Positions 35,021 through 64,000 of a DNA stretch of 64,000 nucleotides are shown in pieces (within the stretch, counting starts at the first letter, position 1; every line of letters starts with the position of its first letter). Origin of the DNA: Sphingomonas sp. SORGH_AS_0950 (lineage in GTDB: Bacteria; Pseudomonadota; Alphaproteobacteria; Sphingomonadales; Sphingomonadaceae). The translations under genes and the position numbers were made by a program. The notes below the pieces were generated by a model that saw only the letters and a list, made by a program, of their open reading frames with translations, did not search any database and was not told the origin of the DNA. The DNA lies in NCBI RefSeq assembly GCF_030818415.1, contig NZ_JAUTAE010000001.1:250501-314500 (forward strand). Direction: 5' to 3'.

Positions 35021-36181
35021 TCAACCAACGTGGCGCTGGGGGGCCAGTCCATCGATCGCCGCCAGGATAGCGGTGTGGATCGCGATGCGCGCTTCGCCGA
35101 TGCGCTTGTTGTCGCGGGTGGGGTTCACGCGATTGGTCAACAGAATGATGAAGGCATCGCGCTTGCGGTCGATATAGATGGACGTGCCGGTAAAGCCGGT
35201 ATGGATCAGCGCGTCGGGTGAGGCGCGCGGCCCGGCAAAGCTACCGGAGGCATCGGGCATGTCCCATCCCAAAGCGCGCGAAGTGCCCGGCGGTTCGGCC
35301 TGGCGAGTGGTGAAGGCGGCGATGGTGGACGGCTTCAACAGGCCCTTGCCGTCGCGAAGATAGAGTTCCGCCAGCTTTGCGAGGTCCCGCGCGGTGGAGA
35401 ACAGCCCAGCATGCCCGGAAACCCCATCCAGCACATAGGCATTTTCGTCATGCACCTCGCCCCGGATCAATCGGTGCCGAAATATCTTGTCCTGCTCGGT
35501 GGGCACGATCCTGGCCAAGTTGCGGGCGGACGGGTTGAAGCCGGTATCCTTCATCCCCAACGGTCCAAACACAGCGTCGTGCAGGAAGCGGTCGAGCGGC
35601 TTGCCCGATAGGCGCGCGACGATCTCGCCCATCAGGATCATGTTCTCGTCGCGATACTGATAGTGCGAACCGGGTGTCCATGCGACCGGCATATGATCGA
35701 TCAGGGCGAGCAGCTCCTGCCGGTTGCGGCTATGCTGCCAGAGAAGATCGGTGATGAACAAGCCCGAGCTGTGACCCAGCAGGTGACGCACGGAAATCCG
35801 CTCATGCCCGGGCGTACCGGCGAAGGTCGGCAGATAGTCGATCACCGGCCGGTCGAGGTCCAGCAGCCCCCGGTCATAGAGCAACTCGGCCGCGGTTGTC
35901 GTACCGACGACCTTGGTCAGCGAGGCGAGATCGAAGATCGCGTTGCGGGGCATGGGCAGCGCATCGGGCGCGGACGACATCCGCCCGAAGTTGCGCAGCG
36001 CCACCAGCCGACCATGGAGACCGATCGCGACGACCGCGCCTGGAAAGGCCTTGCCGACCCAGGATTGGATTTCATCAAAGGCTTCGGCGAAGCGTGGCGG
36101 CCGTGCCTGGGCAACGACAGCCTGGGCGAATATTGCCCCCACGGTCATCCCCTGCACGAAGCGCCGCCGGTCGATCGTCAT
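35021..36181 (-). CDS. Tat-exported serine hydrolase, class C beta-lactamase fold (AmiE/YbbE-like)
   Basis: 386 residues from ATG 36181, overlapping the acylase stop (ATGA). A Tat motif (DRRRFVQGMT) begins the leader. The catalytic SxxK is SLTK in FDLASLTKVVGTTT. The second motif is a Tyr in YQYRDEN, and the third box is HTGFTGTS in place of KTG. The HTGFTG variant also occurs in B. subtilis YbbE (AmiE), which removes the peptide from MurNAc. Given murQ and anmK in this island, an N-acetylmuramoyl-L-alanine amidase, D-aminopeptidase or carboxypeptidase role is likely, in the periplasm. True beta-lactamase activity is less likely. Confidence 0.88.
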   Translation of the reverse strand: MTIDRRRFVQGMTVGAIFAQAVVAQARPPRFAEAFDEIQSWVGKAFPGAVVAIGLHGRLVALRNFGRMSSAPDALPMPRNAIFDLASLTKVVGTTTAAELLYDRGLLDLDRPVIDYLPTFAGTPGHERISVRHLLGHSSGLFITDLLWQHSRNRQELLALIDHMPVAWTPGSHYQYRDENMILMGEIVARLSGKPLDRFLHDAVFGPLGMKDTGFNPSARNLARIVPTEQDKIFRHRLIRGEVHDENAYVLDGVSGHAGLFSTARDLAKLAELYLRDGKGLLKPSTIAAFTTRQAEPPGTSRALGWDMPDASGSFAGPRASPDALIHTGFTGTSIYIDRKRDAFIILLTNRVNPTRDNKRIGEARIAIHTAILAAIDGLAPQRHVG

Positions 36182-38445
36182 GGGTGAAGCTCCGTCACCT
36201 GGCGAATATGTGCGTCGACCGCCTTCCTGCCAAATGGAAAGGGGCGTGCCCGACCGGCTAGCCACGTCGCATAGCCGTCGCGGTAATGCGGGGAGCGCGG
36301 ATCGATCGACTGGCCGGGCAGGGTCAGGATACAGCTCCGATCCCAATCGCCGACATCGCAGACCATCAGGACGCTCGCGCCGTGGCTGACGTGATAGTCG
36401 CGGGCGGCGACATAGCCGCGCGCCATCACGGTGAAGGTGTCGCCCCCGGACCGGCCGCCCTCGATGACGGGTAGCGCGGCGTCGATCGCGGGCAAGCCGG
36501 ACAGGGGATGGCGAAGGACGACGCGGTGAATGTCACCCCAACGCCAGGCGGCCGGATCGGCGCCCAACGCCTCCGACGCCGTCTCCCAGGCCCGGCCGAG
36601 CGCCTTCGCCAGCAGAGCGTCGCGCGCCGCCTCAGGGTCGGGGCCGAGGCGCGTATCGGGATGAGTCAGCAGCGCGAGCATCGGTCGCGGATCGATCGAT
36701 GTCACCAACTCGCGCGCGCTGTCGGGCACGATCGCGGCGAGGCAGGCTTTGCCGAGTTCGATCCACAGCATTTCAAACAAAGCGGCGGCGGCGCTGTCCG
36801 CACCCAGCCGAGCATCCCAGTCGCAGAGCATGACTGCCGCCCGCGCCGCCATGCCGTCGAGCGCCTTCGGCAGCAACGGCAGAAGGGCCTGCGCGGGCAG
36901 CGAGAGATCGTCATGCTGTAACGCCACGCTATCGGCGACGGAATGACAGTCGGCGTCACCGAGCACCTGCGCGATCCGGTCGTAGCGATAAGGCGCGTTC
37001 CAGGTGAAGCTCGTCATTCCCTTGGTCGACGACCATTCCGGTGGAAGATTGAACTGGTTGGCCGAGGCGAACCAGCCCTGCGCCGGATTGAGAAGCGTCG
37101 GCATCTGCTCGGCGGGAAGAATACCCTGCCAGTCATGGCGTCCGTCGCCCGGCACCGGCAACAGGCCGTCAGCCTGGTTACGGATTGGAACATGGCCCAG
37201 CAATCGCCAGCCCGTGTTGCCGTCGATATCGGCATAATGGAAGTTGGTCGGCGCCACGTGCAGCCGGGCGGCCTCGGCGATTTCGTCCCAGTTCCCTGCC
37301 AGATTGAGCGCGATGATGGCAAAGGTCATGTTAGCGCCGGGAAGCAGCGAGGCCGACGCCATGGCCGTGGCACGCAGGCGGGATGGATCGTGGCGCAACA
37401 CCGGCCCGTGTTCGGCATGGCGGAGCGTCACCACCACGTCATCGGCGTCCTTCACGCGGATCGTTTCGGTCGTCTTTGCGAACCGCTTCCATTGGTCCTG
37501 ATGGCGATAGCATTCGGGATCGTCCGGGCTCAGCTCCAGGACGTACAGATCCTCCTGATCGATATGCGAATTGGTCCGCCCGAACGCATAATGGTCGGTA
37601 TGGCCCTGCATGATGCCGGGCATGCCGGGGCTCCCCGCGCCGATCACGTCGAAACCCGGGGCGGTGAGATGGGCAAGATGACGTGGGGAAAAGCCTCCGA
37701 TACCGAGATGCGGATCATTGGCCAGGATCGGGCGACCGGTGGCCGACCGCGCAGACGAGATTGTCCAAGCATTGCTGCCATGCGCGTTGCGGTCGAGGCG
37801 GTCCTCGACCGGGTCGTAACCGGCAGGCGAGGTGCCGCTCCAGGGCAGCGGCCCTTCGGTCTCGCCCAAGATACCCAGATCGGCCTGAGAGACGGCTGCC
37901 AGATCGAGCCCCTCGGGTAGCTGGGGCGTGCGGTCCCCGGTCAGCGGTGCGACCAGCGTGTCGAGGTCTAGCAGGCCAAGCGTTGCGAGCCGGGCCCGCC
38001 GGATTTCGTCGGTAACGCTGCCCATGTCGCCACGGCGGACGCGGACCAGGTCGGCAATGTCCCACCGCAGTGGTTGCAGCTTCAGCACGTCATATTCCGG
38101 CGGCAATAGAGAGGGATCGCCCTCCAGCTCGGCGATGCGGGCGTTGATCCCGTCGACATAGGCGCGGGCGCAAACGACAACGTCCACGGGAAGCTCCGCC
38201 AGTTCGCTCTCGACGTTGCCGCGATAGAGGAGCAGGCGCGCGGCATGGTCATGGGGCACGAACCGCGCGCCGAACGCCTCCGCCAGCCGTCCCAGATCGC
38301 GCCGCACCTGGAGATCGATTTGGAACAGCCGGTCGCGGGCGACGACATAGCCCTGACCGAAATAAGCATCGGGGATCGAGGAGGCGCGAATATGCGGCAC
38401 GCCCCATTCGTCGTCGGCGATGGTTACGGATGCCCGCAGCGGCAC
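36178..38445 (-). CDS. Penicillin-acylase-family Ntn hydrolase without export signal
   Basis: 755 residues from GTG 38445, set by a strong AAAGGAGG six bases upstream. It begins straight into the alpha-chain fold (VTIADDEWGVPHIRA, FGQGYVVARDRLFQID) with no signal peptide, unlike its paralogue at 41841. The autocatalytic nucleophile is Ser in AHGSNAWTIS, after which RPILANDPHLG follows. The C-terminal PGQSIDPRSPHYRDGY block is present. The family cleaves amide bonds of N-acyl compounds (penicillins, acyl-homoserine lactones, acyl amino acids). The substrate is unknown; coupling to the serine hydrolase points to N-acyl or D-amino acid products. Without export, proenzyme processing would occur in the cytoplasm. 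Confidence 0.88.
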   Translation of the reverse strand: MPLRASVTIADDEWGVPHIRASSIPDAYFGQGYVVARDRLFQIDLQVRRDLGRLAEAFGARFVPHDHAARLLLYRGNVESELAELPVDVVVCARAYVDGINARIAELEGDPSLLPPEYDVLKLQPLRWDIADLVRVRRGDMGSVTDEIRRARLATLGLLDLDTLVAPLTGDRTPQLPEGLDLAAVSQADLGILGETEGPLPWSGTSPAGYDPVEDRLDRNAHGSNAWTISSARSATGRPILANDPHLGIGGFSPRHLAHLTAPGFDVIGAGSPGMPGIMQGHTDHYAFGRTNSHIDQEDLYVLELSPDDPECYRHQDQWKRFAKTTETIRVKDADDVVVTLRHAEHGPVLRHDPSRLRATAMASASLLPGANMTFAIIALNLAGNWDEIAEAARLHVAPTNFHYADIDGNTGWRLLGHVPIRNQADGLLPVPGDGRHDWQGILPAEQMPTLLNPAQGWFASANQFNLPPEWSSTKGMTSFTWNAPYRYDRIAQVLGDADCHSVADSVALQHDDLSLPAQALLPLLPKALDGMAARAAVMLCDWDARLGADSAAAALFEMLWIELGKACLAAIVPDSARELVTSIDPRPMLALLTHPDTRLGPDPEAARDALLAKALGRAWETASEALGADPAAWRWGDIHRVVLRHPLSGLPAIDAALPVIEGGRSGGDTFTVMARGYVAARDYHVSHGASVLMVCDVGDWDRSCILTLPGQSIDPRSPHYRDGYATWLAGRARPFPFGRKAVDAHIRQVTELHP

Positions 38446-38577: not shown

Positions 38578-38595
38578 ACGCCCCGCTGCGCCGGC

Positions 38596-41547
38596 TCAGC
38601 GGGTCTGGAACCGGATGCCGAACCGGAAGGCGCGGCCGAGCAGGTCTGAATAGGTGCTGTTCGCCGCAAGCCCTGTTTCCGGCAACAGGATGGGATCGCG
38701 ATCCAGCAGGTTCGTGATGTTCAGGAACAGCTCGGCGCGACCGCCGCTATGCGTCTTGATCTTGGCGGTCAGGTTCAGGTCGAGATACATCGCGCCCGAG
38801 ATGGAGTTGTCGTCGATCGTCGGGAATTGCGAAACGGTCGCGGCGGGGCGCCCGGTCGGGCAGTTGCCATTGCAGACTATGTAGTTGTTGCCATAGGTCC
38901 CGCTGCTCACCCCGCGCGCCGTGCCGGTGACCGAGAAGCCGTCATCGTCATAGGCCAGGTTGAACCGATAGATCCATTTGGGCGGGCTGGTGCCGTTCAG
39001 CTGGCCGACGATGTCGACCGGCACCACGTTCGGCACGCCGCTGTCGGTGATGTTGTGGATATACCGCGTCGCCAGCCCGTGAAGCGTCACCGCGCCGGGG
39101 GCTTGACGGACGAGGTCGCTCAGCGGCACGCGGTAGTTGGCGTCGAAGTCGATGCCGCGTACCCATTGCCGCGCGAAGTTGAACGGGCTGGCCCGGAAGA
39201 ACAACTCCCGGTCGCCCGAGGGATCGGGGCCATAGGCGGCACAGAAGTCCTTGCGCCCTTCATAGCAGCGATTGATGATGTCCTGTGCGAAGAATTGCCC
39301 GATCGCGTCTCTCAGCTTGATGTCGAAGCCGTCGACCGAGGCCGAGAAGCCGGGAAGGAAGCGGGGTTGGAGCACGACGCCGATCGAGATCGAATCGGCC
39401 TTTTCGGGGTGCAGATTGGGGTTGCCCGTCGTGATTTCGCGGAAGGTGACGGTGGTTCGCCCGGTCGCGGGATCGGTCAGCGTATTGGTCCGCGACGTGC
39501 CCGATGCGTACAGCTCGCTGAGATTGGGGGCCCGGATGTCGCGTGAACGGGTGGCGCGGAAGCGGATGTCCGGGATGGGTTGCCACGTCGCGCCGAGCTT
39601 CCAGGTGGTGACATAGCCCGAGGTGGAATAGTCGGTCCCGCGAACCGCGCCGTTGAACTCCAGGCCGAGGCCCAGCGGGACCACCGTTTCGAGATAGGCT
39701 TCCTTGACGTGATAGCTGCCGAAGGTGGGCAGGAAATTGCCCACGGACCAGCCGGTCTGATATTGGCTGGGCACGAAGCCGGATACCGACTCCCGGCGAT
39801 ATTCGCCGCCTACCGCGACGCTGACGTCGCCCGCCCAGGTCGCGAACGGGGTCATCGACAGATTGGCACCGGCGACGGTCTGTTTCAGTTTCTGGTCGCG
39901 ATAGGGATCGCCCAGGACATAGTCGATCGCGGCCGGATTCGCGACGCCGATGCCCAGCCGGTTGAGCGGCACGCAGCCATTGGTCGGCGCGGTCAGCGAG
40001 GATCGGCATACGATCGTGCCCGCTGCCACACCCAGCGCATTGCCCGCCGGTGCGGCGACCGCGTCGGTCGCTGCGGCCATGTTGGCGGTGTTCATGATGT
40101 CGCGCAGCTGTTCATGCGCATTCGTTTCGCCATATTGGCCGTAGATGTTCCAGAAGGCCGTGTGGCCGAATGCCTGAAACTCACCCTCGCCGCCGATCGC
40201 GTAACGCTGAACGTCACGGCTGCTGTTGTTCTTTCGGTAGGGCAGGTCGACGGCGGTGCTGCCGACCGTCACCGAGGTGACGGCGGACCGCTCCGCCGGG
40301 GTGATGAGCCCGGCGGACACCGCATTGGCCAGGGCGGCCTGCAGATAGGGATTGGCCGCCGTGAGGGTGATGCCGGTCGTCGATTGCGGCCCGGCGTTGA
40401 ACAGCGTCTTTTGCCAGTTGTACGATGCCTCGGCGAACAGCGTCACGCCATTGGCGACTTCGTAGCTCAACCGGCCGAATGCGCCCCGGCGGTCGTCGTC
40501 CGCATCCAGGCCGATATTGCGGCCCTGATCGTTGACGCGCCAGTCCCCGCCCTGGGTCAGCGAAGGGGCGGTGGCGCCGCCCGGCGCCGGGAAGCTGAGC
40601 GCGCCATATTGATACTGGCTCGCTGCGCCGCCTTGCCCGAAATAGAGACCGCGTAGCCGGTTCGCCACGCCGCCGCTGGAATTCAGGATGATGCCACCGG
40701 GGGTCGTGTTGGAGACGCCGACCGGCTGGCGGATCAGATATTGCGGCTGGCCATTGGTGTTGGTGTAATTGGGATTGGTGATCCGGACCACGCCGCGCGC
40801 GTTCCATGCGCGGTCGACCCGGAAGATGCCGTCGCGATGCGCCCATTCGCCGCTCAGCAGCAGATGACCGCGATCATCGCGGCCAAAGGCCGTCCCGACG
40901 GCGGCGCTGAATGAGTAATTTGCACCATCGCCCCGTTCGGTGATCCCGCTGTCGGCCAGGACCTTGATGCCCTGATACTTCTTGTCCAGCACGAAGTTGA
41001 CGACCCCGGCGACCGCGTCCGATCCATAGGCCGCCGATGCGCCACCCGTGACGATCTCGACGCTCTTTACCAAGGCCTGGGGGAAGGTGTTGACGTCGAC
41101 CAGACCGGTGACGCTGGACGACACCGTCCGCCGCCCGTCGAGCAGCACCAGCGTGCGGATCTCGCCCAGACCGCGCAGGTTGAGCGCATTGATGCCCGCC
41201 AGGCCCGAACTGATCGCCAGCCGCGAATTGGAGGGGCGGGTGGAACCTGCCAGCGCGGGCAGCTGGTTGACGAAATCGGCAATGTTGTTCGTCGGTGAGG
41301 TGTTGAGGATATCCTCTTGCGTCGCCACGGTCAGCGGCGTCGGCGACTGGAACCCGTTGCGGATGATCCGCGTGCCGGTGACGGTGATGTCGTCCGGGTC
41401 GATTTGCGTTCCGTTGATGTCCGGCGGGGACGGGGGCGCGCCGGGTGACGGCGTCGTCTGGGCAAAGGCGGGGGAGGCAAGCGCCATCGACAAGGCTGTC
41501 AGGCCCGTGCCGGCGCTCATCAGACGGCGCCGAGATCCGTCGGTCAT
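38596..41547 (-). CDS. TonB-dependent outer-membrane receptor, large carbohydrate/peptide type
   Basis: 983 residues from ATG 41547; a TTG two codons earlier is in frame but weaker. The signal peptide ends in SPAFAQ. A proline-rich linker precedes the TonB box DDITVTGTRI. The plug includes LNLRGLGEIRTLVLLDGRRT and VEIVTGGASAAYGSDAVAGV, and the barrel ends in AFRFGIRFQTR. The GGASAAYGSDAVAGV form is usual in sphingomonad receptors for oligosaccharides and peptides. It lies between two penicillin-acylase paralogues: one downstream on its strand, the other divergent, 293 bases away. The three probably serve one N-acylated ligand. Confidence 0.93.
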   Translation of the reverse strand: MTDGSRRRLMSAGTGLTALSMALASPAFAQTTPSPGAPPSPPDINGTQIDPDDITVTGTRIIRNGFQSPTPLTVATQEDILNTSPTNNIADFVNQLPALAGSTRPSNSRLAISSGLAGINALNLRGLGEIRTLVLLDGRRTVSSSVTGLVDVNTFPQALVKSVEIVTGGASAAYGSDAVAGVVNFVLDKKYQGIKVLADSGITERGDGANYSFSAAVGTAFGRDDRGHLLLSGEWAHRDGIFRVDRAWNARGVVRITNPNYTNTNGQPQYLIRQPVGVSNTTPGGIILNSSGGVANRLRGLYFGQGGAASQYQYGALSFPAPGGATAPSLTQGGDWRVNDQGRNIGLDADDDRRGAFGRLSYEVANGVTLFAEASYNWQKTLFNAGPQSTTGITLTAANPYLQAALANAVSAGLITPAERSAVTSVTVGSTAVDLPYRKNNSSRDVQRYAIGGEGEFQAFGHTAFWNIYGQYGETNAHEQLRDIMNTANMAAATDAVAAPAGNALGVAAGTIVCRSSLTAPTNGCVPLNRLGIGVANPAAIDYVLGDPYRDQKLKQTVAGANLSMTPFATWAGDVSVAVGGEYRRESVSGFVPSQYQTGWSVGNFLPTFGSYHVKEAYLETVVPLGLGLEFNGAVRGTDYSTSGYVTTWKLGATWQPIPDIRFRATRSRDIRAPNLSELYASGTSRTNTLTDPATGRTTVTFREITTGNPNLHPEKADSISIGVVLQPRFLPGFSASVDGFDIKLRDAIGQFFAQDIINRCYEGRKDFCAAYGPDPSGDRELFFRASPFNFARQWVRGIDFDANYRVPLSDLVRQAPGAVTLHGLATRYIHNITDSGVPNVVPVDIVGQLNGTSPPKWIYRFNLAYDDDGFSVTGTARGVSSGTYGNNYIVCNGNCPTGRPAATVSQFPTIDDNSISGAMYLDLNLTAKIKTHSGGRAELFLNITNLLDRDPILLPETGLAANSTYSDLLGRAFRFGIRFQTR

Positions 41548-41840
41548 ATGCAATCCCCCTATTCACGATCTTTGGAGCGTGATCTCCCTGCGGCCGGTCA
41601 TGATCTTTTCGCTGATCCGTGCTTCCGGAATGGTGCAGGCGAGACGCAACCCAGGTCAAGGGTCGTCCGACTACCGATCGTTGGGTGGGCCATAGCCTTG
41701 GATTATGGCGGCATTGCACGCGCGTCGGGCCGCCCTATGGTCTGGCACCGGCCGTCCTGTCGACAGGGGGCATCACCGACTTTGCGGGGGTGCGCCACGG
41801 GATGATCCGACACACCGCATGGTTCGAGAAGGGGGAAGCC
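41548..41840. other. Divergent intergenic region between TBDR and second acylase
   Basis: About 290 bases without a convincing gene. It should hold promoters for both directions. I see no strong palindrome. The rightward frame upstream of ATG 41841 is open but lacks any recognisable protein sequence. Confidence 0.5.
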
Positions 41841-44177
41841 ATGGTCTCTCGCCGTACATTCCTGCTCGGCGCCACCGCGTTGGGTGCGCTTGCGCCCTGG
41901 CGAGGGATCGCCCGACCGGTCGGCTCGACCGCCTATGCGACGGTGCCCGGCCTGTCGCGACCGATCGAGATCGTGGACGATGGCTGGGGCATCCCGCATA
42001 TCCGCGCGCAGACCAAGGCGGACGCCTTTTTCGGTCAGGGCTATGTCGTTGCGCGTGACCGGCTGTTCCAGATCGACTTCGCCCATCGCCGGGAAATGGG
42101 GCGGATGGCCGAGGCGTTCGGCGCGGCGTTCGCGACATATGACGCCAAGGCGCAGCTGTTCCATTATCGCGGCGATCTCGATGCGGAGCTGGCCCGCATC
42201 CCGTCGCCGGTCCTGGACTGCGTGCGGGGCTATGTCGCTGGGATCAATGCCCGGATCGCCGAAGTGGAGCGCGATCCGACATTGCTGCCGCTGGAATATC
42301 GCATTCTGGGCGTGATGCCGATGCGTTGGGAATTGCGCGATCTGGTGGTGGCGCGGGGCGGCTCGGTCGGCAATGTCGACGACGAGATTCGCCGCGCCAT
42401 GCTGGCGGCAATGGGGCGGCTCGACCTCGACCGGCTGGTGGCCCCGCTGCGCCCCGCGATCGCGATGACCGTGCCGGAGGGACTGGACCCGGCACAGGTC
42501 AGCGAGGCGGACATGGGGGTGTTGCAGCTTGGGCCGCTGCCGTTCGGACGAGAGACGCCGACCCGGGAGCGGGACGAGATGTTGAGCGCCACCAATGCCG
42601 GGTCGAACGCCTGGACGGTGGCGGGAAGCCGCACCGCGACGGGGCGTCCGATCCTGGCCAATGACCCGCATCTGGGCATTGGCGGGTTCGGGCCGCGCCA
42701 CGTCGCCCATCTCAGCGCGCCCGGCCTGGACGTAATCGGCGGCGGGGCGCCGGGGCTGGCGGGCATCATGCAGGGCCATACCGACCGCTTCGCCTTCGGT
42801 CGCACCAATTTCCATATCGACCAGGAAGACCTGTTCGTGCTGGAGCTCCATCCGGACGACCCGGAGCGTTACCGCCATGACGGCGGCTGGAAGCGGTTCG
42901 AGCGGGAGGTGATCGACATTCCCGTGAAGGACGCGCCGCCGCACCGGGCGGTGCTCCGTTACGCGGTGCAGGGGCCGGTGGTGTCGCACGATTCGGCCCG
43001 TTCGCGCGCGACTGCGATCGCCTCGGTGGGAATGCAGCCGGGCGGATCGGGTGCGTTTTCGATGGTGGCCATCAACCTGGCGGAGGACTGGGCGGGGTTG
43101 CGCGAGGCGTTCAAGTTCCACCCGTCGCCCACCAATTTCCATTATGCCGATGTGCGCGGGCATCATGCGTGGCAGGCCATCGGCTTCTGGCCGGAGCGCA
43201 AGCGCGGCCATGGCCTGCTGCCGGTACCGGGCGATGGACGTTACGACTGGGTGGGGATGCGCGATTTCCGCGCCTTGCCCGGTGTGTTCGATCCCGCTGC
43301 GGGCTGGTTCGCCTCCGCGAACCAGAACAACCTGCCGCCAGGCTGGCCGATCGAAAGGAGCCCGGCCTTCTCGTTCCGCGATCCCGCACGCTATGATCGC
43401 ATTGCCGACGTGCTGTCGAAGCAGACCCGGCACAGCCTGGCCGACAGCGTGGCGCTGCAGCACGACACATCGTCGTCGCTCGCCCGGCGCTTCCAGGCGA
43501 TGTTACCGCGCCAGCCTTCGCCCGGAGCGGCGGCGGCGGTCGCGATGCTGGCGCGCTGGGATACGCGGATCGACGGTGCGAGCGGGGCGGCGGCACTGTA
43601 CGAGGTCGTGCTGCGCGCGCTGAATGTACGGATGCTCGGCGCACAGGTCCCGGAAAACGCACGCAGCCTGATTTCCTCGATCGAGCCGCCCGAACTGCTC
43701 CGTGTAGCCGCTGGTCGGCCCGACCTGGTCGACGAGTCGCTCGCCGTCGGCTGGACGGAAGCGGGCAAGCTGCTGGGGCCCGATCCCACGGCCTGGCGGT
43801 GGGATATGCTGCACCGGGTCCGGATCACGCATCCGCTTGCGCGGCTTCCGGCGATCGCGGCGGCTTTCCCCGCGATCGAGGTGGGCGGCTCAGGCGGCGA
43901 TGGCTTTACGGTGATGGCCCGCTGGCTGGGCAACGGACCGGACTGGCGGGTCGGCGGCGGCGCGAGCTATCTCGAGGTGATCGATGTCGGTGACTGGGAT
44001 CGTTCGCTGATGCTCAACCTGCCGGGCCAGTCGAACGATCCGCGCTCCCCGCACCGGCAGGACCAGGGTGGCCCGTGGAGTGCGGGCCAGATGCTACCCA
44101 TGCCGTTCAGCCGCGCCGCGGTCGACGCGGTCGCCACGACCGTCACCCACCTGCAACCCGAGAGGAGCCCGAGATGA
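41841..44177 (+). CDS. Tat-exported penicillin-acylase-family Ntn hydrolase
   Basis: 778 residues from ATG 41841, preceded by AAGGGGGAAG. The Tat leader has SRRTFLLGATALG. The mature part (IEIVDDGWGIPHIRA, FGQGYVVARDRLFQIDFAHR) is a close paralogue of the protein at 36178. The nucleophile Ser lies in NAGSNAWTVAG, followed by RPILANDPHLGIGGFG. It is expected to mature into alpha and beta chains in the periplasm. It is coupled to a D-aminoacylase gene (ATGA), so release of acyl groups from D-amino acid amides or related N-acyl compounds is a sensible guess. Acyl-homoserine lactone cleavage is another possibility. Confidence 0.9.
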   Translation: MVSRRTFLLGATALGALAPWRGIARPVGSTAYATVPGLSRPIEIVDDGWGIPHIRAQTKADAFFGQGYVVARDRLFQIDFAHRREMGRMAEAFGAAFATYDAKAQLFHYRGDLDAELARIPSPVLDCVRGYVAGINARIAEVERDPTLLPLEYRILGVMPMRWELRDLVVARGGSVGNVDDEIRRAMLAAMGRLDLDRLVAPLRPAIAMTVPEGLDPAQVSEADMGVLQLGPLPFGRETPTRERDEMLSATNAGSNAWTVAGSRTATGRPILANDPHLGIGGFGPRHVAHLSAPGLDVIGGGAPGLAGIMQGHTDRFAFGRTNFHIDQEDLFVLELHPDDPERYRHDGGWKRFEREVIDIPVKDAPPHRAVLRYAVQGPVVSHDSARSRATAIASVGMQPGGSGAFSMVAINLAEDWAGLREAFKFHPSPTNFHYADVRGHHAWQAIGFWPERKRGHGLLPVPGDGRYDWVGMRDFRALPGVFDPAAGWFASANQNNLPPGWPIERSPAFSFRDPARYDRIADVLSKQTRHSLADSVALQHDTSSSLARRFQAMLPRQPSPGAAAAVAMLARWDTRIDGASGAAALYEVVLRALNVRMLGAQVPENARSLISSIEPPELLRVAAGRPDLVDESLAVGWTEAGKLLGPDPTAWRWDMLHRVRITHPLARLPAIAAAFPAIEVGGSGGDGFTVMARWLGNGPDWRVGGGASYLEVIDVGDWDRSLMLNLPGQSNDPRSPHRQDQGGPWSAGQMLPMPFSRAAVDAVATTVTHLQPERSPR

Positions 44178-51408: not shown

Positions 51409-51419
51409 GCGCCCGTTGA

Positions 51420-56699: not shown

Positions 56700-56709
56700 A
56701 ACCTGAGTA

Positions 56710-56759: not shown

Positions 56760-56815
56760 GGGGAGGATCGGGATAGCATTTCGCATCGCATGAGGATCGG
56801 CTCGAGGAGCATGGG

Positions 56816-57673
56816 ATGCTGAGGATCGACGTCGCGCTCTCCGATGCCGGGAGCATGGTGAACGAGGATGCGATCGGCCATTTCGGCGATGCGGCCTGGG
56901 TGATCGACGGAGCCACGGGGATCGGTCCATCCCTGCTGGACGCACCCAGCGACGCGGCATGGCTGGCTCAGACCGCCAACCGGCTGATCGCCGACGCCCT
57001 TGCCGAAGATCCGGACTGTTCCACGATCGAGATATTGCGCGATGTCATGACGCGCTGCGCGGTAGCGCTTGCGGATGCGCAGGTTCGCGCTTTCGACGGC
57101 ACCCACGAACTGCCCTCGGCGGCTTTTGCCATGATCCGGTTGCGTGGTGATGCTGCCGAGATCACCGCGCTGGCCGACTGCCGCGTAGCGGCAGTGGACG
57201 AAGCCGGGGTTGCGCGATTGTTCGGCACCTATGCGCTTGATGTCGTCGAGGCGCGGACGCTGGCTGCGGTCAAGGCGATTCGCGAGGAAAACCCCTCGAT
57301 CGACTCCGAGGCTTTGAAGAATCTGCTGTTGCCGGGACTGAGCGCCAATCGCCATCTCAAGAACCGCGACGGCGGCTATTGGGTGCTCGGGACGGAGCCT
57401 GCCGCTGCCGACCATCTCTGGCAGGCGACGGTTCCGCTCCATCCCGGCCAGCGCTTCGCGATCGCCAGCGACGGCTTCCTGCGACTCGTGGAACTGTTCG
57501 ATGTGGCGACGCCCGACGATCTGCTGGCGATCGCCACGCCGGAGGACGGTGCCGCCTGGCTGGCGCGGTTGCGCGATATCGAAAGCGAGCCGGATTCGCT
57601 GCGGCGTCATATCCGGGTGAAGCGGCACGACGATGCCAGTCTGATCGTCTGCACTTGGGACCCGTCCTGCTGA
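56816..57673 (+). CDS. PP2C-like phosphatase domain protein coupled to anmK
   Basis: 285 residues spanning one PP2C-type domain. The start has SMVNEDAIGHFGDAAWVIDG (the metal Asp pair region) followed by ATG. ALADCRVAAVDEAG marks the central strands, IASDGFLRLV the DG motif, and VKRHDDASLIVCTW the end. These correspond to the metal-binding Asp residues of PPM/PP2C phosphatases. There is no signal or other domain. It overlaps the anmK start (TGATG), an unusual partnership. It may dephosphorylate a protein regulating the pathway or a small phosphate; the substrate is unknown. Confidence 0.8.
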   Translation: MLRIDVALSDAGSMVNEDAIGHFGDAAWVIDGATGIGPSLLDAPSDAAWLAQTANRLIADALAEDPDCSTIEILRDVMTRCAVALADAQVRAFDGTHELPSAAFAMIRLRGDAAEITALADCRVAAVDEAGVARLFGTYALDVVEARTLAAVKAIREENPSIDSEALKNLLLPGLSANRHLKNRDGGYWVLGTEPAAADHLWQATVPLHPGQRFAIASDGFLRLVELFDVATPDDLLAIATPEDGAAWLARLRDIESEPDSLRRHIRVKRHDDASLIVCTWDPSC

Positions 57674-58773
57674 TGCTGGTGATGGGCTATATGAGCGGGA
57701 CGTCGCTGGACGGCGTCGACGTCGCACTGATCGAGACGGATGGCGAGCGGATCGAGGCGTTCGGTTCCACGACGATGATCCCCTTTACCGACGCCCAACG
57801 CGTGAGCATCGAACAGGCGACGCGCGATGCGCTGGCGTGGAACGGCTATGGTGCGATGCCGTCATCGTTCGATACGGCGTCAACGGTCATAGAGCGGCTG
57901 CATATCGAGGCTGGCGAGCGGCTGATGGCGGAGGCCGGGCGGCGCCCGGATCTGATCGGCTTTCATGGCCAGACGTTGCTCCATCGGCCCGAGCGCGGCC
58001 TGTCGGTCCAGATCGGCGATCCCCAGATGCTGGCGGATGTCCTGCGCGTGCCGGTAGTCGCGCAAATGCGGCAGGATGATCTGCAGGCTGGCGGGCAGGG
58101 TGCCCCGCTGGTGCCTGTCTATCACGCCGCGCTTGCCGAGTATCTTGGCTTCGCGCGGCCGGTCGCGTTCCTCAATATCGGGGGCGTTGCGAACCTGACC
58201 TGGATCGGGGCGGACAGGAGCTTGATCGCGTTCGATACGGGACCGGGCAACGGCTTGATCGACCAGCTCGTCCAGTCGCGCGGGGCGGGCCGTTATGACG
58301 ATGGGGGCCGTTTTGCCGCTGCGGGCTGTGTCGACACGGACATTCTGGCCCGTCTGCTGACGCACGACTATTTTCAGGGAGAGGGAGCGAGATCGCTCGA
58401 TCGCTATGACTTTCCGCTCGACTGGGTGGCGGCCTGTTCGATCGAGGATGCCGCCGCCACACTGACTGCGTTCACGGCGGAGGCGGTGGCCCTGGCGGCG
58501 CGGACACTGCCCGCCCTGCCCGAATTGTGGATCGTGTGCGGGGGCGGGGGACATAATCCGGTATTGATGGCGGCGTTGCGCGATCGCCTCGGAGTCTGCC
58601 GGACGGCGGACGAAATCGGCCTGCGCAGCGATTTCATCGAGGCCGAGGCGATGGCCTTCCTCGCTGCACGTAGCCTGCATGGTCTGCCTTTGACCTTTCC
58701 GGGCACGACCGGTGTCGTCGAACCCTTGACCGGCGGTCGCCTTTGGCGGCCACGCAATAATACCAAAATATAA
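57673..58773 (+). CDS. anmK: Anhydro-N-acetylmuramic acid kinase AnmK
   Basis: 366 residues, the usual family length. The signature ATP motif is GYMSGTSLDGVDVAL. Conserved blocks are GFHGQTLLHRPERG, RQDDLQAGGQGAPLVP, NIGGVANLTW and FDTGPGNGLIDQ with the catalytic Asp, plus WIVCGGGGHNP. It hydrolyses the 1,6-anhydro ring and phosphorylates the sugar to give MurNAc-6-P, the MurQ substrate. Cytoplasmic. Coupled to the PP2C-like gene upstream; the operon continues to a TBDR, an SSS symporter and murQ. Confidence 0.96.
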   Translation: MLVMGYMSGTSLDGVDVALIETDGERIEAFGSTTMIPFTDAQRVSIEQATRDALAWNGYGAMPSSFDTASTVIERLHIEAGERLMAEAGRRPDLIGFHGQTLLHRPERGLSVQIGDPQMLADVLRVPVVAQMRQDDLQAGGQGAPLVPVYHAALAEYLGFARPVAFLNIGGVANLTWIGADRSLIAFDTGPGNGLIDQLVQSRGAGRYDDGGRFAAAGCVDTDILARLLTHDYFQGEGARSLDRYDFPLDWVAACSIEDAAATLTAFTAEAVALAARTLPALPELWIVCGGGGHNPVLMAALRDRLGVCRTADEIGLRSDFIEAEAMAFLAARSLHGLPLTFPGTTGVVEPLTGGRLWRPRNNTKI

Positions 58774-58778
58774 TACCA
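58757..58778. promoter_or_regulatory. Direct repeat ATAATACCA x2 before the TBDR gene
   Basis: ATAATACCA occurs at 58757-58765 and again at 58770-58778, 13 bases apart start to start, overlapping the anmK stop and lying in the AT-rich leader of the TBDR at 58891. The AATACCA core is shared with the dld/PP2C promoter. A pathway-specific repressor site is plausible. Confidence 0.5.
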
Positions 58779-58890
58779 CATGTTTACATATTGAGGAGAG
58801 GTATACATGATCGCGGTGGGGTCCAGGCCTGCCATAGGTCATGATCCATGATCGGCGGACTGGGTTCGGGCATATCAGGGAGGGACTGCA

Positions 58891-61629
58891 ATGATGACGT
58901 CGTACCGACATAGCGTAGCCGCAGCCGCACTGGCGGTAGCCCTTGTGCAGGCACCCGCAGCTGTGCACGCCCAGACCGCCTCTGCGACGCCCGCGACCCA
59001 GGACGGTTCGACGTCCGGCGACGAGGTCGTGGTCACGGGGACGCGCATTCCCGCCACCGGCCTGACCTCCAGCAGCCCGGTCGCCTCGACGAACGAGGCG
59101 CAGATCAGATTGCGGTCCGCGCTGACGATCGAGGATTTCTCCACCACCATCCCGCAGCTTTCGGGCGGTGTGCGCCAGGGCTCGCAGGGCAGCGATGCGT
59201 TCGGCGCGCAGGTTCTCGAGCTACGCAATTTCGGTCAAAGCCGCTCGCTGGTGCTTATCGACGGCACCCGTGCGGCACCCTTCAGTTTCCGGAACTCGGT
59301 CGACGTCAACGCCATTCCCGCATCGCTCATCAAGCGCGTCGATGTGCTGACCGGTGGTGCGGCGGCGGTCTATGGCGCGGATGCCGTCGCTGGCGTCGTG
59401 AACTTCATCCTCAACGACGAATATGAGGGCATCCGCGGCACCGCGACCAGCCGGTTGTCGGTCCATGGCGGTGCGCAATATGGCGGCTCGCTGATGCTGG
59501 GCACCGGCATTGGTGATCGTGGCAATCTGGTGATCGCGGCGGACTATACCCAGCGCGACGGTGTGCGGGCGGGACAGCGCAGCTGGGCCGCGACGCCCAA
59601 CCAGACCATTCCGAGCATCGGCGGCGTCTTCACCGACGTCGCGAGCGGTCGACGCTTCGGCTTTACGGACGATGGCACGTTCACGACCACTCCTTCCGCC
59701 ACCTCCAACATCTCCGCCACCTATCCCCTGATCTCGCCGCTCAAGCGGATCAACGTGGCCGCGCTGTACAAATATGAGATCACGCCGCAGATCGAGGTCT
59801 ATGGCCGGGCCATGTATACCAATGCCCGTACCGAGGAGACGGGCACCCCCGGGGCGGCGCCCGCATCGGTCAACCGCACCGTTGGGATCAGCGCGACCAA
59901 TCCGTTTTTGACGGACGCGATCCGCAACCAGCTGACGTTCGTGAACGGCACCGCCCAGGTAAACGTGTCCCGGTCGCTCAGCGAACTGGGGCTGATCCGC
60001 TATGCCACCGAGCGTAATACATTGCAGGTCCAGTCGGGCCTGCGCGGACCATTGACCGATGCGGTGCGATGGAACGTCTATGCGCAATATGGCCGTTCGA
60101 CGGAATCGTCGCTGATCTCGGGCGATGGCCTTGTCACCAGCCCGGCGGGCGCGAACAATTTCGCGTCGATCGTCAATACGGTCAACATCTTCGGGCCCAA
60201 CCGGCCCGGGCTGGCCGCCGCGCTGGGCAGTACGATCGACGGCTTCAACCGCAAGCGTGACCAGTTCGTCACGGCAGGGACGGTGAGCGGCACGCTGGCC
60301 GACCTGTTCTCCCTGCCTGCCGGGCCGATCGGCTTTGCCGGCGGCGTCGAATATCGGCGGGAAACGGCGAGCATCAATCAGGATAGTGCGCTGCTGACCG
60401 GCAACACCTATCGCCAGGGCGTGCAGGCCGCCTATCGCGGCGCGTTCGATGTCATCGAACTCTATGGCGAAGTCCTTGTCCCGCTGATCCACGACACTCC
60501 GCTGATCCGAAAGCTCGACGTCGGCGGCGCCTATCGCCTGTCGGATTATAATCGGTTCGGCACGCACGGTACGTGGAAGGTCGAGGGTAACTGGGAAGTC
60601 GACCGCAACCTGCGGCTGCGGGGCACCTATCAGCGCGTGTTGCGGACGCCCAATTTCGGGGAATTCGCCGCCAGTACCTCGTCGCTGCCGCTCAACAGCC
60701 TGGTCACCGTCGATCGCCTGAAGCCGCGCTATGGCGGCGATCCTTGCGTGATCGGCACCGGCAATGCGGCGCAATGCGCGCGGTTCGGCGCTCCGTCGGT
60801 GGGATCGGCCAATTCCACCGCCCCCGGCTACCTGACCGGCAACTATTATTATGGCGGCAATCCCGACATCAAACCGGAAACCGGCTATACGACGACGGCG
60901 GGCGCGGTGTTCACGCCGACCTTCCTGCCGGGCCTGAACGTGACGGTCGACTATTACAATCTCGACCTGCGTGGGGCGGTCGGCGTGATCCAGCCGATCG
61001 CGGCGATCACGAGCTGTTACATCACCAATCCGACCGCGAACAATCCGCTATGCGCGCTGGTCACGCGCAACTCGAACGGCACCTTCGCCGATGCCTTCGT
61101 CAACAATCAGAATCTGGGTCGCCTGCTGCAGCGCGGCTTCGACATCTCGGCGGCCTATACCCTGCGACCGGACTGGCTGCCGGGCAAGGGCCTTCGCGCG
61201 AGCTATCAGGGCAATATCGTCACATCCTATCTGATCCAGGCGAACCCGACCGTGTCCGCGGTTCAGTGCAAGGGGACGTTCGGTGCCACCTGCTCCAGCG
61301 ATGGTACGACGCTCGTCCAGCCGGATTATCGCCACACGGCCGGGCTCGGCTGGCTGTTGGACAGGGGCGTGATCCAGTTCGACTGGCAGCGCATCGGTAA
61401 GGTCCGGTCGAGCACGGTCGGATCGACCGAGACGCTGAAGGCGCAGGATGTCTTCGACCTGTCGGCCTCCTACGACTTCACCGATGTCGTCACGATGAGC
61501 GCGGGCGTCTACAACCTGTTCGACAAGGCGCCGCCCCGTGTGTCGACGGGCGGTGTGTTCAACACCTTCCCCGACACCTACGACATTCTGGGGCGGACGA
61601 TCGGCTTCTCGCTGACCGCGCATCTCTGA
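58891..61629 (+). CDS. TonB-dependent outer-membrane receptor (candidate muropeptide receptor)
   Basis: 912 residues. The signal peptide ends in AVHAQTA, and the TonB box is DEVVVTGTRI. The plug has VLELRNFGQSRSLVLIDGTR and VDVLTGGAAAVYGADAVAGV. The barrel ends with GFSLTAHL; the last residue is Leu, less typical than Phe. There is no STN domain. It sits between anmK and an SSS symporter/murQ pair with an AT-rich promoter of its own, so amino-sugar or muropeptide uptake is the likely role. Chitin-derived sugars are an alternative. Confidence 0.93.
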   Translation: MMTSYRHSVAAAALAVALVQAPAAVHAQTASATPATQDGSTSGDEVVVTGTRIPATGLTSSSPVASTNEAQIRLRSALTIEDFSTTIPQLSGGVRQGSQGSDAFGAQVLELRNFGQSRSLVLIDGTRAAPFSFRNSVDVNAIPASLIKRVDVLTGGAAAVYGADAVAGVVNFILNDEYEGIRGTATSRLSVHGGAQYGGSLMLGTGIGDRGNLVIAADYTQRDGVRAGQRSWAATPNQTIPSIGGVFTDVASGRRFGFTDDGTFTTTPSATSNISATYPLISPLKRINVAALYKYEITPQIEVYGRAMYTNARTEETGTPGAAPASVNRTVGISATNPFLTDAIRNQLTFVNGTAQVNVSRSLSELGLIRYATERNTLQVQSGLRGPLTDAVRWNVYAQYGRSTESSLISGDGLVTSPAGANNFASIVNTVNIFGPNRPGLAAALGSTIDGFNRKRDQFVTAGTVSGTLADLFSLPAGPIGFAGGVEYRRETASINQDSALLTGNTYRQGVQAAYRGAFDVIELYGEVLVPLIHDTPLIRKLDVGGAYRLSDYNRFGTHGTWKVEGNWEVDRNLRLRGTYQRVLRTPNFGEFAASTSSLPLNSLVTVDRLKPRYGGDPCVIGTGNAAQCARFGAPSVGSANSTAPGYLTGNYYYGGNPDIKPETGYTTTAGAVFTPTFLPGLNVTVDYYNLDLRGAVGVIQPIAAITSCYITNPTANNPLCALVTRNSNGTFADAFVNNQNLGRLLQRGFDISAAYTLRPDWLPGKGLRASYQGNIVTSYLIQANPTVSAVQCKGTFGATCSSDGTTLVQPDYRHTAGLGWLLDRGVIQFDWQRIGKVRSSTVGSTETLKAQDVFDLSASYDFTDVVTMSAGVYNLFDKAPPRVSTGGVFNTFPDTYDILGRTIGFSLTAHL

Positions 61630-61646
61630 CCGGATAGCCTTGCCAC

Positions 61647-61677: not shown

Positions 61678-61728
61678 ATCGCCTCATGCCTGCGGGCCTT
61701 TGGTCCGGGGCGATCGGAGTATGCTTCG

Positions 61729-63309
61729 ATGATGCTGCCCTTCTCCATGGCCGACTGGCTCGTGATCGCTGGCTATCTGCTGCTGCTGGTCGCGGGCGGG
61801 TGGCTATTGACGCCGCGCCAGACGGCGTCGGCTCGCGAATATTTCCTGGCGGGCGGCACCGTTCCCGCCTGGCTCGCGGCGCTTTCGGTCCTGTCCGCCA
61901 CCCAGTCGGCGGCGACCTTCCTCGGTGGGCCGGACTATGGCTATCACGGCGACCTGACCTATCTTAGCGCCAATATCGGCGGCGGCCTGATCGGGGCGAT
62001 CTTCGTGGCCCATGTCCTGATCCCACGCTTCTACGCGATCCGCGCGAATACCGCCTATGAGTTGCTGACCCTGCGGTTCAGCGAGCGAGCGACCCGCTGG
62101 GCGGGTGGCATGTTCCTGGTCGGGAGGGTCTTTGCCGGTGGCGCGCGCGTATATCTCGCCGCCATCGCGTTGGCGATGGTCGTCACGGGCGGCGTCGGCG
62201 TGCAGGGCATCGTGATCGCCGCCGCCGCGCTGGTCGTAGCGAGTGTCGCGTTCACCTTCGTCGGCGGTCTGAAGTCGGTTCTGTGGAACGACCTGATCCA
62301 ATTCGTCGTCTATGTCGGCTCGGCGGTCGCGGTGCTGGTGTTCCTGCGCCTGTCGATCCCGGCCTCCAATGCCCAGATCCTGCAGGCGCTGGCCCATACC
62401 CCGCAGGGCGTCGACAAGCTGCGGCTGTTCGATTTCTCGCTGGACCTCTCGCGGCCCTTCTCGATGCTGGCGATCGTTACCGGGCTTGCACTGCTCTATA
62501 TCGCCAATGCAGGCATGGACCAGGACACCACGCAGCGCCTGCTTTCGTGCAGGGATGCAAAGACGGGCGCGCGTAGCCTCTATCTGTCGGTGTTGGCGAC
62601 GGTGCCGACCGTCGGCATGTTCATTGTCATCGGCCTGTTGCTGTACGTGTTCTATGACCGCCCCGACCTGATGGTTGGTTCCGGCGCCGCCGCCGCCAGC
62701 GAGTTTGAGGGGCAGAAGATCAGCATTTTCATGCACTATATCCTGACGCAATTGCCCGGCGGCCTGCGCGGCCTGGTGACGATCGGCATCTGCGCGGCGG
62801 CGGTGGCGACCACCAATTCCGCGCTGAATGCGATGTCGTCGGTGCTGGTGCAGGACTTCTATCGCCCCTGGCGAGAACGGCGCGGGCCGGTCGAGGAGCA
62901 TCACTTCGTCCAGGCCGGGCGTGCCGGCATGGGCATCATCGGCTTCGCGATGTTCCTGATGGCCGTCCTCTCCTTCTATTGGCAGCGCCACAGCTCGATG
63001 GGCCTGCTGGAGTTCGCGCTGCAGGTGATGGTGTTCAGCTATGCGGGACTGCTGGGTGTCTATTTCACCGCCTTGTTCACCACGCGCGGGACGACCGGTT
63101 CGGCCATCGCCGCGATGTTGATTGGTTTCCTGACGATCATCCTCCTGCAACCTGCCATCGCACGCGCCATCGGCCTGCCTCTCCAACTGAGCGGGCTCTC
63201 CTTTCCTTTTCAGCTTTGCATAGGAACCGCCCTGGCGTTCCTGGTCTGCGCTGCGCCATCGGGCGCAGGCCGCTCCGCATCGAAGCTCCCATCGGGATCG
63301 ACGCTATGA
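61729..63309 (+). CDS. Sodium:solute symporter (SSS family), candidate amino-sugar importer
   Basis: 526 residues with about 13-14 membrane helices. SSS features include EYFLAGGTVPAWLAALSVLS, NTAYELLTLRF, GGLKSVLWNDLIQFVVYVGS and AGMDQDTTQRLLSCRDAKTG. It starts at ATG 61729 (a second ATG follows directly). Its stop overlaps the murQ start (ATGA). Na+-coupled carriers of this group move sugars including N-acetyl sugars, so import of MurNAc, anhydroMurNAc or GlcNAc-MurNAc across the inner membrane is likely. No phosphotransferase component is nearby, consistent with kinase-based activation by AnmK and the BadF-type enzyme. Confidence 0.92.
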   Translation: MMLPFSMADWLVIAGYLLLLVAGGWLLTPRQTASAREYFLAGGTVPAWLAALSVLSATQSAATFLGGPDYGYHGDLTYLSANIGGGLIGAIFVAHVLIPRFYAIRANTAYELLTLRFSERATRWAGGMFLVGRVFAGGARVYLAAIALAMVVTGGVGVQGIVIAAAALVVASVAFTFVGGLKSVLWNDLIQFVVYVGSAVAVLVFLRLSIPASNAQILQALAHTPQGVDKLRLFDFSLDLSRPFSMLAIVTGLALLYIANAGMDQDTTQRLLSCRDAKTGARSLYLSVLATVPTVGMFIVIGLLLYVFYDRPDLMVGSGAAAASEFEGQKISIFMHYILTQLPGGLRGLVTIGICAAAVATTNSALNAMSSVLVQDFYRPWRERRGPVEEHHFVQAGRAGMGIIGFAMFLMAVLSFYWQRHSSMGLLEFALQVMVFSYAGLLGVYFTALFTTRGTTGSAIAAMLIGFLTIILLQPAIARAIGLPLQLSGLSFPFQLCIGTALAFLVCAAPSGAGRSASKLPSGSTL

Positions 63310-64000
63310 TGAAAACCGAAACGCTCGACGCACGCTATCTCGAACTCGATAAGTGGCCGACGGAATCGGCTGTCCAGGCGATGCTGGAAGGCCAGATGGC
63401 GGCCATCGCCGCCATCCAGTCGCAGACCGCTGCGATCGCGCGGGCCGCCGAAGCGGCGGCGGCACGGCTCGGCCAAGAGGGGCGCCTGATCTATGTCGGG
63501 GCAGGTACGTCCGGCCGGCTCGCCGTGCAGGACGGGACGGAGCTGAACCCCACGTTCAACTGGCCTATGAAACGCCTGATCTTCCTGATGGCGGGCGGTT
63601 ACGGGGCGCTGACACAGGCATATGAAGGGGCGGAGGACAATACCGAGGCGGCACGCGCCGATATCGATGGCTGCGCAATCACCCCGTCCGATGTCGTCAT
63701 CGGCGTGGCGGCCAGCGGCTCAACGCCCTACACCGTCGCGGCAATCGAGCATGCCAGAACGCTCGGTGCGCTGACGATCGGGATTTCGAACAACGCGGGG
63801 ACTCCGCTGATCGCACATGCCGAGCATCATGTGCTGGCCGATACGGGCAGCGAAGTTCTGGCGGGGTCGACCCGGATGAAGGCGGGCACCGCGCAAAAGG
63901 CGGTGTTGAACCTGTTGTCCACCGCACTGATGCTGCGCCTGGGGTTTGTCTATCGCGGGCGAATGGTGGCCATGCGCGTTTCCAACGCGAAACTCTTGCA
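63306..64000 (+). CDS. murQ: N-acetylmuramic acid 6-phosphate etherase MurQ (3' end beyond window)
   Basis: 231 codons of the roughly 300 expected; the frame is open to base 64000. The SIS domain begins GRLIYVGAGTSGRLAVQDGT. Catalytic Glu79 (in DGTEL) and Glu110 (in EGAEDN) match the pair known from E. coli MurQ. Further family blocks are VIGVAASGSTPYTVAAIEHA and SEVLAGSTRMKAGTAQK. It splits MurNAc-6-P into GlcNAc-6-P and D-lactate. It is translationally coupled to the symporter. Its product D-lactate is the substrate of the nearby Dld. Confidence 0.96.
   Translation, partial: MMKTETLDARYLELDKWPTESAVQAMLEGQMAAIAAIQSQTAAIARAAEAAAARLGQEGRLIYVGAGTSGRLAVQDGTELNPTFNWPMKRLIFLMAGGYGALTQAYEGAEDNTEAARADIDGCAITPSDVVIGVAASGSTPYTVAAIEHARTLGALTIGISNNAGTPLIAHAEHHVLADTGSEVLAGSTRMKAGTAQKAVLNLLSTALMLRLGFVYRGRMVAMRVSNAKLL

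Follow-up and report, generated by a model that had tools for sequence, protein, structure and literature searches.

Large amounts of carbon and nitrogen, as well as D-amino acids, are stored in peptidoglycan, and genes for the use of its sugar N-acetylmuramic acid (MurNAc) are clustered in Bacillus subtilis (murQ-murR-murP-amiE-nagZ-namZ) and Escherichia coli (murQ-murP-yfeW). The ybbC gene of Tannerella forsythia presumably belongs to the NamZ family as well. The ampG-ybbC-murTKQ transcription unit of this organism is described, in the excerpts of the reports considered here, as holding a MurNAc transporter, MurK, MurQ and AmpG in one locus, with environmental muropeptides (peptidoglycan fragments) being used (PMC5388701, PMC7670621, PMC10465942). 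The stretch of DNA analysed in this study, referred to as the window, comprises 64,000 nucleotides of Sphingomonas sp. SORGH_AS_0950 (bases 250501–314500 of contig C1, in a genome of 4.39 Mb) and carries an island of two modules, with module A at 35–51.4 kb and module B at 51.5–64.9 kb. The gene content and its recurrence in relatives suggest that this is probably an island for the use of muropeptides, in which module B would serve the amino-sugar side and module A the D-amino-acid side.

Gene content and proposed route

Gene identities were assigned through scans with Pfam and NCBIfam models, with scores compared to curated cut-offs, and through searches of the PDB for the closest structures, whilst signal peptides and cell compartments were assigned by eye from the N-termini (Table 1). 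A reading made earlier from the sequence alone had listed murQ, anmK, a BadF-type kinase, dld, PBP4, two S12 hydrolases, a GH84 glycosidase, an SSS symporter, two TonB-dependent receptors (TBDRs), a D-aminoacylase, dgcN, dgcA and a DAACS symporter in overlapping operons, and the models confirmed every gene named, with many genes of module A overlapping by a few bases. The list was, however, incomplete, as it lacked the two S45 acylases and the LysR gene, and murQ runs past the end of the window. Dld, DgcN and DgcA, said to be built into the locus, do lie within the island, each scoring above its cut-off. On the minus strand, module A encodes S12, S45 and the TonB receptor, and on the plus strand S45, D-aminoacylase, DgcN, DgcA, the SDF symporter, LysR and PBP4; module B has Dld, S12, GH84 and BadF on the minus strand, and PP2C-AnmK followed by the TonB receptor, SSS, MurQ and GntR/UTRA on the plus strand. 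The closest named locus, L005 from Sphingomonas sp. GM_Shp_1, is 84–98% identical in protein sequence, gene by gene.

Table 1. Features of the island, with window coordinates unless a position in stretch L003 is given.
Feature	Position	Strand	Evidence
S12 serine hydrolase (AmiE/PBP4B-like), first	35021..36181	-	PF00144 215.9 bits (longer frame); Tat-type N-terminus by inspection
S45 Ntn acylase (S45a), D-succinylase-type	36178..38445	-	PF01804 612 bits; closest PDB D-succinylase 7ea4, E 1e-142
TonB-dependent receptor, module A	38596..41553	-	PF00593/PF07715
S45 Ntn acylase, second (S45b), D-succinylase-type	41841..44177	+	Closest PDB D-succinylase 7ea4, E 7e-129; Tat-type N-terminus by inspection
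D-aminoacylase / N-acyl-D-glutamate deacylase-like amidohydrolase	44174..45760	+	PDB 1rjp D-aminoacylase E 1e-55; 3gip N-acyl-D-glutamate deacylase E 4e-41
DgcN	45832..46878	+	NF041892 492.4 bits, cut-off 480
DgcA, N-acetyl-D-Glu racemase	46836..47834	+	NF042940 441.6 bits, cut-off 400 (scanned as 46827-47834)
SDF (dicarboxylate/amino acid:cation) symporter, presumed D-Glu importer	47825..49093	+	PF00375 319.5 bits
LysR-type regulator, module A	49103..49987	+	PF03466, PF00126
PBP4/DacB (S13), D,D-carboxypeptidase/endopeptidase	49984..51408	+	PF02113 274.9 bits; TIGR00666 215.8, cut-off 107.8
BadF-type kinase (NagK/MurK-like)	51560..52444	-	PF01869; PDB NagK-like 1zc6 E 3e-35
GH84 beta-N-acetylglucosaminidase, 354 aa	52464..53528	-	PF07555 204 bits, cut-off 25
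S12 serine hydrolase (AmiE/PBP4B-like), second	53519..54844	-	PF00144 224 bits (longer frame); Sec-type signal peptide by inspection
Dld, membrane D-lactate dehydrogenase	54939..56699	-	NF008387 846.1 bits, cut-off 391 (scanned without first codon)
Divergent promoter region	56700..56815		ATACCA half-site at 56711
PP2C-like phosphatase	56816..57673	+	PF13672 weak, 19.5 bits, cut-off 24
AnmK2, locus AnmK paralogue	57673..58773	+	NF007141 473.6 bits, cut-off 352
Region before TBDR-SSS-murQ operon	58760..58890		ATACCA at 58760 and 58773, at 3' end of anmK
TonB-dependent receptor, module B	58891..61629	+	PF00593/PF07715
SSS symporter, presumed (anh)MurNAc-sugar importer	61729..63309	+	PF00474 79.1 bits
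MurQ etherase	63306..64202 (window ends at 64000)	+	NF003915 341.1 bits, cut-off 168; PDB MurQ 4s12 E 1.5e-56
GntR/UTRA regulator	L003:2200-2934, beyond window, after MurQ	+ (same strand run as MurQ)	Pfam

The catalytic motifs of module B are conserved. The TELNPTF and EGAEDN segments of MurQ align with SECPPTF and EGAEDD of 4s12, keeping both catalytic glutamates, which we take to be those numbered E83 and E114 in E. coli, and the protein also exceeds the cut-off of NF009222 (276 vs. 255 bits), but not that of TIGR00274 (250.4 vs. 302). AnmK2 carries the FDTGPGN motif, whose aspartate presumably has a catalytic role in AnmK. The Asp117-Asp118 pair of GH84 is invariant in 24 aligned relatives (alignment A1), and the protein begins right at the domain; no signal peptide was seen on inspection. 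The best NCBIfam model for BadF is NagK_SO3507 (232.8 bits, below the cut-off of 370), and this protein also matches PDB chains named as MurNAc kinases (8zo3, a MurNAc/GlcNAc kinase, E 4e-15; 8ow9, E 3e-4). In the PP2C-like protein, the motifs NED, DGA.G (here DGATG), SDG and DD are invariant in 28 aligned homologues, and a PDB search with its profile gave no match up to E 0.1; its gene overlaps anmK, and recurs in MurQ loci, including one that lacks AnmK (L014).

For module A, DgcN and DgcA are adjacent and the models they exceed are equivalogs, whilst in S45a, as its frame is called, a signal peptide is not evident. The best NCBIfam model of both S12 proteins is PBP4B (144.4 and 200.8 bits, below the cut-off of 385), and the first is 65% identical to an S12 adjoining NamZ and BadF in another genome of the sample, G147 (L103). 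The suggestion that the S12 and S45 proteins break down beta-lactams or acyl-homoserine lactones draws on PF00144 and PF01804 including beta-lactamases, penicillin acylases and PvdQ, but the class C beta-lactamase model gave only 58.5 and 56.7 bits against a cut-off of 415, the PvdQ model 74.9 and 77.6 bits against 950, and D-succinylase is by a wide margin the nearest solved structure to both S45s, making this explanation highly improbable.

From this gene content we infer the substrates, compartments and direction of flux as follows. The S12 hydrolases, S45b, D-aminoacylase and PBP4 are predicted to lie outside the inner membrane, where the S12 amidase-type enzymes and the other three would trim the peptides and split them from the sugar, and fragments would cross the outer membrane via the two TonB receptors. 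The SSS symporter may bring in N-acetylglucosamine (GlcNAc)-(anhydro)MurNAc or its parts. In the cytoplasm, the predicted location of GH84, BadF, AnmK, MurQ, DgcN and DgcA, GlcNAc would be freed by GH84, GlcNAc and/or MurNAc phosphorylated by BadF, and anhydroMurNAc (anhMurNAc) converted to MurNAc-6-phosphate by AnmK2; MurQ would then yield GlcNAc-6-phosphate and D-lactate, the latter oxidised by Dld, and NagA with NagB, whose genes belong to this operon in many related loci, would lead on to fructose-6-phosphate. The D-aminoacylase and the D-succinylase-type S45s would free D-amino acids, chiefly D-glutamate (D-Glu), which may enter via the SDF symporter and be turned into L-Glu by DgcN and DgcA.

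A more specific form of this route is suggested tentatively, in which the cytoplasmic GH84 branch splits GlcNAc-anhMurNAc for the AnmK paralogue and the S45s cut the gamma-D-Glu amide of the stem peptides, feeding DgcN and DgcA. If true, this would be a full wall-to-central-metabolism system with two activities new to peptidoglycan degradation; to our knowledge, GH84 enzymes have so far been known as hyaluronidases or O-GlcNAcases.

Module B in related genomes

A search of genome contigs with the GH84 profile (A1) gave at least 576 confirmed relatives, of which the best 80 were kept as loci. MurQ is present in the fetched stretch of 17 of these 80, all belonging to Sphingomonadales by title, together with SSS (15 of the 17), a module-B TBDR (15), GntR (15), BadF (13), Dld (11), AnmK (10), NagA and NagB (10), and PP2C (9). 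The recurrence of such gene sets in other genomes is the ground for taking the grouping to go beyond chance. Two genes precede GH84 in 10 of the 17 loci, and in L030 these are NagB-II (NagB_SO3506 318.6 bits, cut-off 430) and NagA (TIGR00221 263.6 bits, cut-off 225.65); in the window, S12 and Dld occupy this place. Loci with NagA, NagB, SSS, AnmK, BadF and MurQ would hold a set leading from outer-membrane uptake to fructose-6-phosphate in one place.

Amongst the remaining 63 of the best 80 loci, no island gene but GH84 itself reached the threshold used in 61, a single weak S12 match (30%) is present in L032, and L007, a sphingomonad by its genes, has S12, GH84, BadF and most of module A, with MurQ not in reach. 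The record of L007 is titled Arthrobacter sp. TPD3018, a name that is probably wrong; its island genes are 72–89% identical to those here. In L006 (Sphingomonas trueperi), SSS (73%) and MurQ (64%) have diverged further than the genes next to them, and the 15.8 kb stretch showed no TBDR, AnmK, PP2C or Dld between SSS and S12, suggesting that the front end of this locus was exchanged. In Marinobacter loci (L017, L027, L028, L063 and others), the same GH84 subfamily lies within a few kb of an acyltransferase gene (from a cluster present in 16 loci) and of genes for TRAP transporters (from a cluster present in 25); neither MurQ nor AnmK was matched in the fetched stretches, and GH84 likely serves a different use there.

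In a sample of 149 genomes of Sphingomonadaceae in the wide sense, MurQ scored above cut-off in 15, the loci of the 14 besides the window's genome being fetched, and this GH84 (E 1e-40) was found in 12. The two are shared by five genomes, in each of which they are 3–10 kb apart (Fisher p 0.003; here and below, Fisher and binomial values ignore kinship), and it is this linkage that points to a part for GH84 in peptidoglycan use. Loci of the AnmK-SSS-TBDR type occur in G028, G042 and G024, the last without GH84, whilst G036 has TBDR, MurQ, GntR, NagB, NagA, GH84 and AnmK, with no SSS match. In G147, of the same genus, SSS (73%), NamZ (PF07075 222 bits), S12 and BadF stand in a row with a divergent MurQ, the exo-MurNAcase NamZ taking the place of AnmK and GH84.

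The alternative that module B serves general GlcNAc/chitin or O-GlcNAc utilisation, with MurQ and AnmK incidental, has in its favour that GH84, BadF (with NagK as best model), NagA and NagB are GlcNAc enzymes, that GH84s of solved structure are mostly named O-GlcNAcases, hyaluronidases or glucosaminidases, and that GlcNAc clusters of Caulobacter are described, in the excerpt of that source, as a TonB receptor, PTS permease, NagA, NagB and GntR regulators (PMC13046382). By established pathway knowledge, however, pure GlcNAc breakdown has no place for MurQ, AnmK and Dld, the SSS symporter is found again beside NamZ in G147, and GH84 here has only 354 aa vs. 447–474 aa in the three best-matching PDB chains. 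A helical bundle after the GH84 domain is proposed, in the portion of the paper considered, to recognise the protein part of substrates (PMC4683255). On balance, this alternative is improbable.

Linkage and regulation of the two modules

The two modules tend to occur jointly in the family, as a joint locus for the sugar and D-amino-acid parts of muropeptides would predict, which supports this proposal. DgcN scored above cut-off in 22 of the 149 genomes, eight of which also have MurQ (Fisher p 2e-4), and in seven of these eight (G000, G041, G054, G060, G069, G077 and G107, under seven genus codes) the two genes are 2.0 to 16.5 kb apart, the exception being G147. The six linked loci besides that of the window's genome all contain BadF, PBP4 and D-aminoacylase, with NagA and NagB in four and S45 in three, in differing orders. 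An AmpG-family match is also present in all six (G054, G060, G041, G077, G107 and, distantly at 26%, G069); the family name rests on model scores of genes beside S12 in L111 (314.6 bits), L108 (317.5) and L034 (343), all below the cut-off of 350. Nine loci in which DgcN falls below its cut-off, out of 16 such genomes, served as a control and gave PBP4, AmpG, SDF, S45, BadF and MurQ in none of the nine, with S12-type matches in most, D-aminoacylase-type matches in three, and S9 matches too.

The half-site ATACCA, seen at two places in module B (Table 1), recurs upstream of PP2C in 12 of 13 cases and upstream of the TBDR in 16 of 19, with 44 sites in total vs. 2.8 in dinucleotide shuffles, the sequences being related to each other. 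Upstreams of BadF, in contrast, have it in 2 of 16 cases (three sites vs. 1.3 in shuffles). These counts leave out the over-long L049 rows (two, with one row in the TBDR set), and the module A TBDR set was not used. TGGTAT-type half-sites occur in NagR/DasR operators, and the GntR of the locus is the obvious candidate for a regulator acting at ATACCA. As no module A promoter has this word, the modules are probably regulated apart, as separate regulons, and a single regulon for both is unsupported.

This separation would also fit module A being an N-acyl-D-amino-acid module with no relation to module B other than adjacency. Module A has its own LysR and promoters without ATACCA, its S45s are nearest to D-succinylase and its amidohydrolase to D-aminoacylase, and 14 of the 22 DgcN genomes have no MurQ above cut-off, whilst 10 of the 22 have no PBP4 near DgcN. 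However, the closeness of MurQ and DgcN in seven of the eight genomes having both speaks against mere adjacency, as does that of PBP4: single S13/PBP4 matches above 200 bits were found in 21 genomes (G042, where S13 matched in two pieces, is omitted), DgcN is shared by 14 of these, and 12 of the 14 have both genes no more than 9 kb apart. Matches to the AmpG family in 9 of the 21 fetched DgcN genomes, six of which had two stretches searched, point the same way, and an unrelated module A is considered rather unlikely.

NagZ, AmpG and NamZ are absent from the window, as had been noted. It had also been supposed that GH84 and SSS may be used in their place, which was not borne out, as a NagZ-like GH3 gene (C1:3475020-3475898; 203.8 bits, just below the cut-off of 207) and an AmpG-family gene (354.5 bits, cut-off 350) are located elsewhere in the genome; only NamZ gave no match to its model in the whole genome. 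The NagZ model matched in 148 of the 149 family genomes (138 above cut-off, this one just below), so that the idea of GH84 making up for the lack of NagZ is rejected, and recycling of the cell's own wall could run alongside the island. That the island itself recycles the cell's own wall turnover, and not foreign peptidoglycan, would agree with AnmK and MurQ being recycling enzymes in E. coli, according to the excerpt of PMC13046382, and with AnmK occurring in all 12 GH84 genomes of the family. This too is unlikely, however, since MurQ is accessory, recycling needs no outer-membrane uptake yet the island has two TonB receptors, and a core AnmK, 48% identical to AnmK2, lies elsewhere in the genome, as do AmpG and the NagZ-like gene.

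In a tree of 36 AnmK rows, a branch with 100/100 support splits off 13 locus AnmKs from 21 core AnmKs and two further locus rows, L020 and L104, of the same genome. The best tree has two changes between locus and core labels, and a single change is seen in none of the bootstrap trees, so that entry of AnmK into such loci may have happened twice, although the strongly supported branches alone may be compatible with a single origin.

A number of observations weigh against a muropeptide island, in addition to the DgcN genomes without MurQ or without a nearby PBP4. GH84 is dispensable in some such loci and its subfamily also occurs in other settings: 63 of the best 80 GH84 loci have no MurQ nearby (32 from Marinobacter by title, six from sphingomonads), and this GH84 is missing from 10 of the 15 genomes with MurQ, including G024, which has the rest of an AnmK-type locus. 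A universal bond between GH84 and AnmK holds in the family but fails at class level, where AnmK is in two of five GH84 genomes, and the association of MurQ with AnmK over the family is unclear (8/15 vs. 41/134, p 0.07). The second S12 is found amongst the best 80 loci only in L005–L007, plus the 30% match in L032. NamZ is linked to MurQ in G147 only, the rest of the 8 of 15 MurQ genomes that have NamZ carrying it elsewhere; the MurQ loci of G020 and G104 have only a distant receptor, and that of G071 only BadF, NagA and NagB. NagA and NagB were not located in this genome, and BadF and MurQ each fall below one curated cut-off. ATACCA at 35–51.4 kb occurs only inside genes (44800 and 50919), leaving the module A promoters without it, and its count in the whole window is 19 vs. 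9 expected.

Further observations concern the borders of the modules. The start of a 47-codon open frame at 51420-51563 (minus strand) overlaps the stop codon of BadF (ATGA); this frame has a Tat-like N-terminus but soon terminates, and may be what is left of a downstream gene since lost. Just beyond the island, L003:4312-11301 (66.3–73.3 kb in the window frame) holds in a row genes for a TonB receptor whose N-terminal part looks FecA-like by eye, an ABC protein resembling SbmA/BacA and a pair of metalloproteases resembling TldD/TldE, a set that hints at a modified peptide being taken up and broken down. It is followed at L003:12582-18308 by a run of a GH92-family gene, a frame resembling a TonB receptor and a DUF218 gene, a possible glycan locus.

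Comparison with described systems

In the open-licence PMC literature searched, titles and opening abstract lines gave no role of GH84 in peptidoglycan breakdown, and no description of such a locus in sphingomonads was found. If the muropeptide reading is true, a family of free-living Gram-negative bacteria carries loci that treat peptidoglycan as food, and a new GH84 substrate, an SSS symporter for muramic sugars and a second AnmK for breakdown are predicted. MurNAc breakdown would here be physically linked to D-Glu racemisation, an arrangement that recurs under seven genus codes.

As in the clusters of B. subtilis and E. coli, MurQ is accompanied by an AmiE/PBP4B-type S12, and in G147 by NamZ too; unlike these clusters, the island is without the PTS permease MurP, MurR and a GH3 enzyme, and has SSS and a cytoplasmic kinase instead. 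Like the T. forsythia unit, as outlined in the excerpts of the reports on it, the island joins a transporter, a sugar kinase and MurQ, but it differs in having SSS and TonB receptors, GH84, AnmK, Dld and a module that would lead from D-Glu to L-Glu. T. forsythia is stated there to have no AnmK orthologue, whereas the island has AnmK; AmpG and NamZ lie in related loci only and are absent from the island. Both enzymes of the DgcN-DgcA D-glutamate pathway (NF041892, NF042940; PMC10845958, PMC12363236) are encoded side by side, as in the pathway known from the excerpts of these sources, but here share their locus with PBP4, S45s, D-aminoacylase and MurNAc genes. The host genome also has the AnmK, NagZ-like and AmpG genes that recall NagZ-AnmK-MurU recycling in Caulobacter, an organism stated in the excerpt of that source to be without MurQ (PMC13046382), whereas the second AnmK and MurQ of the host would add a breakdown branch.

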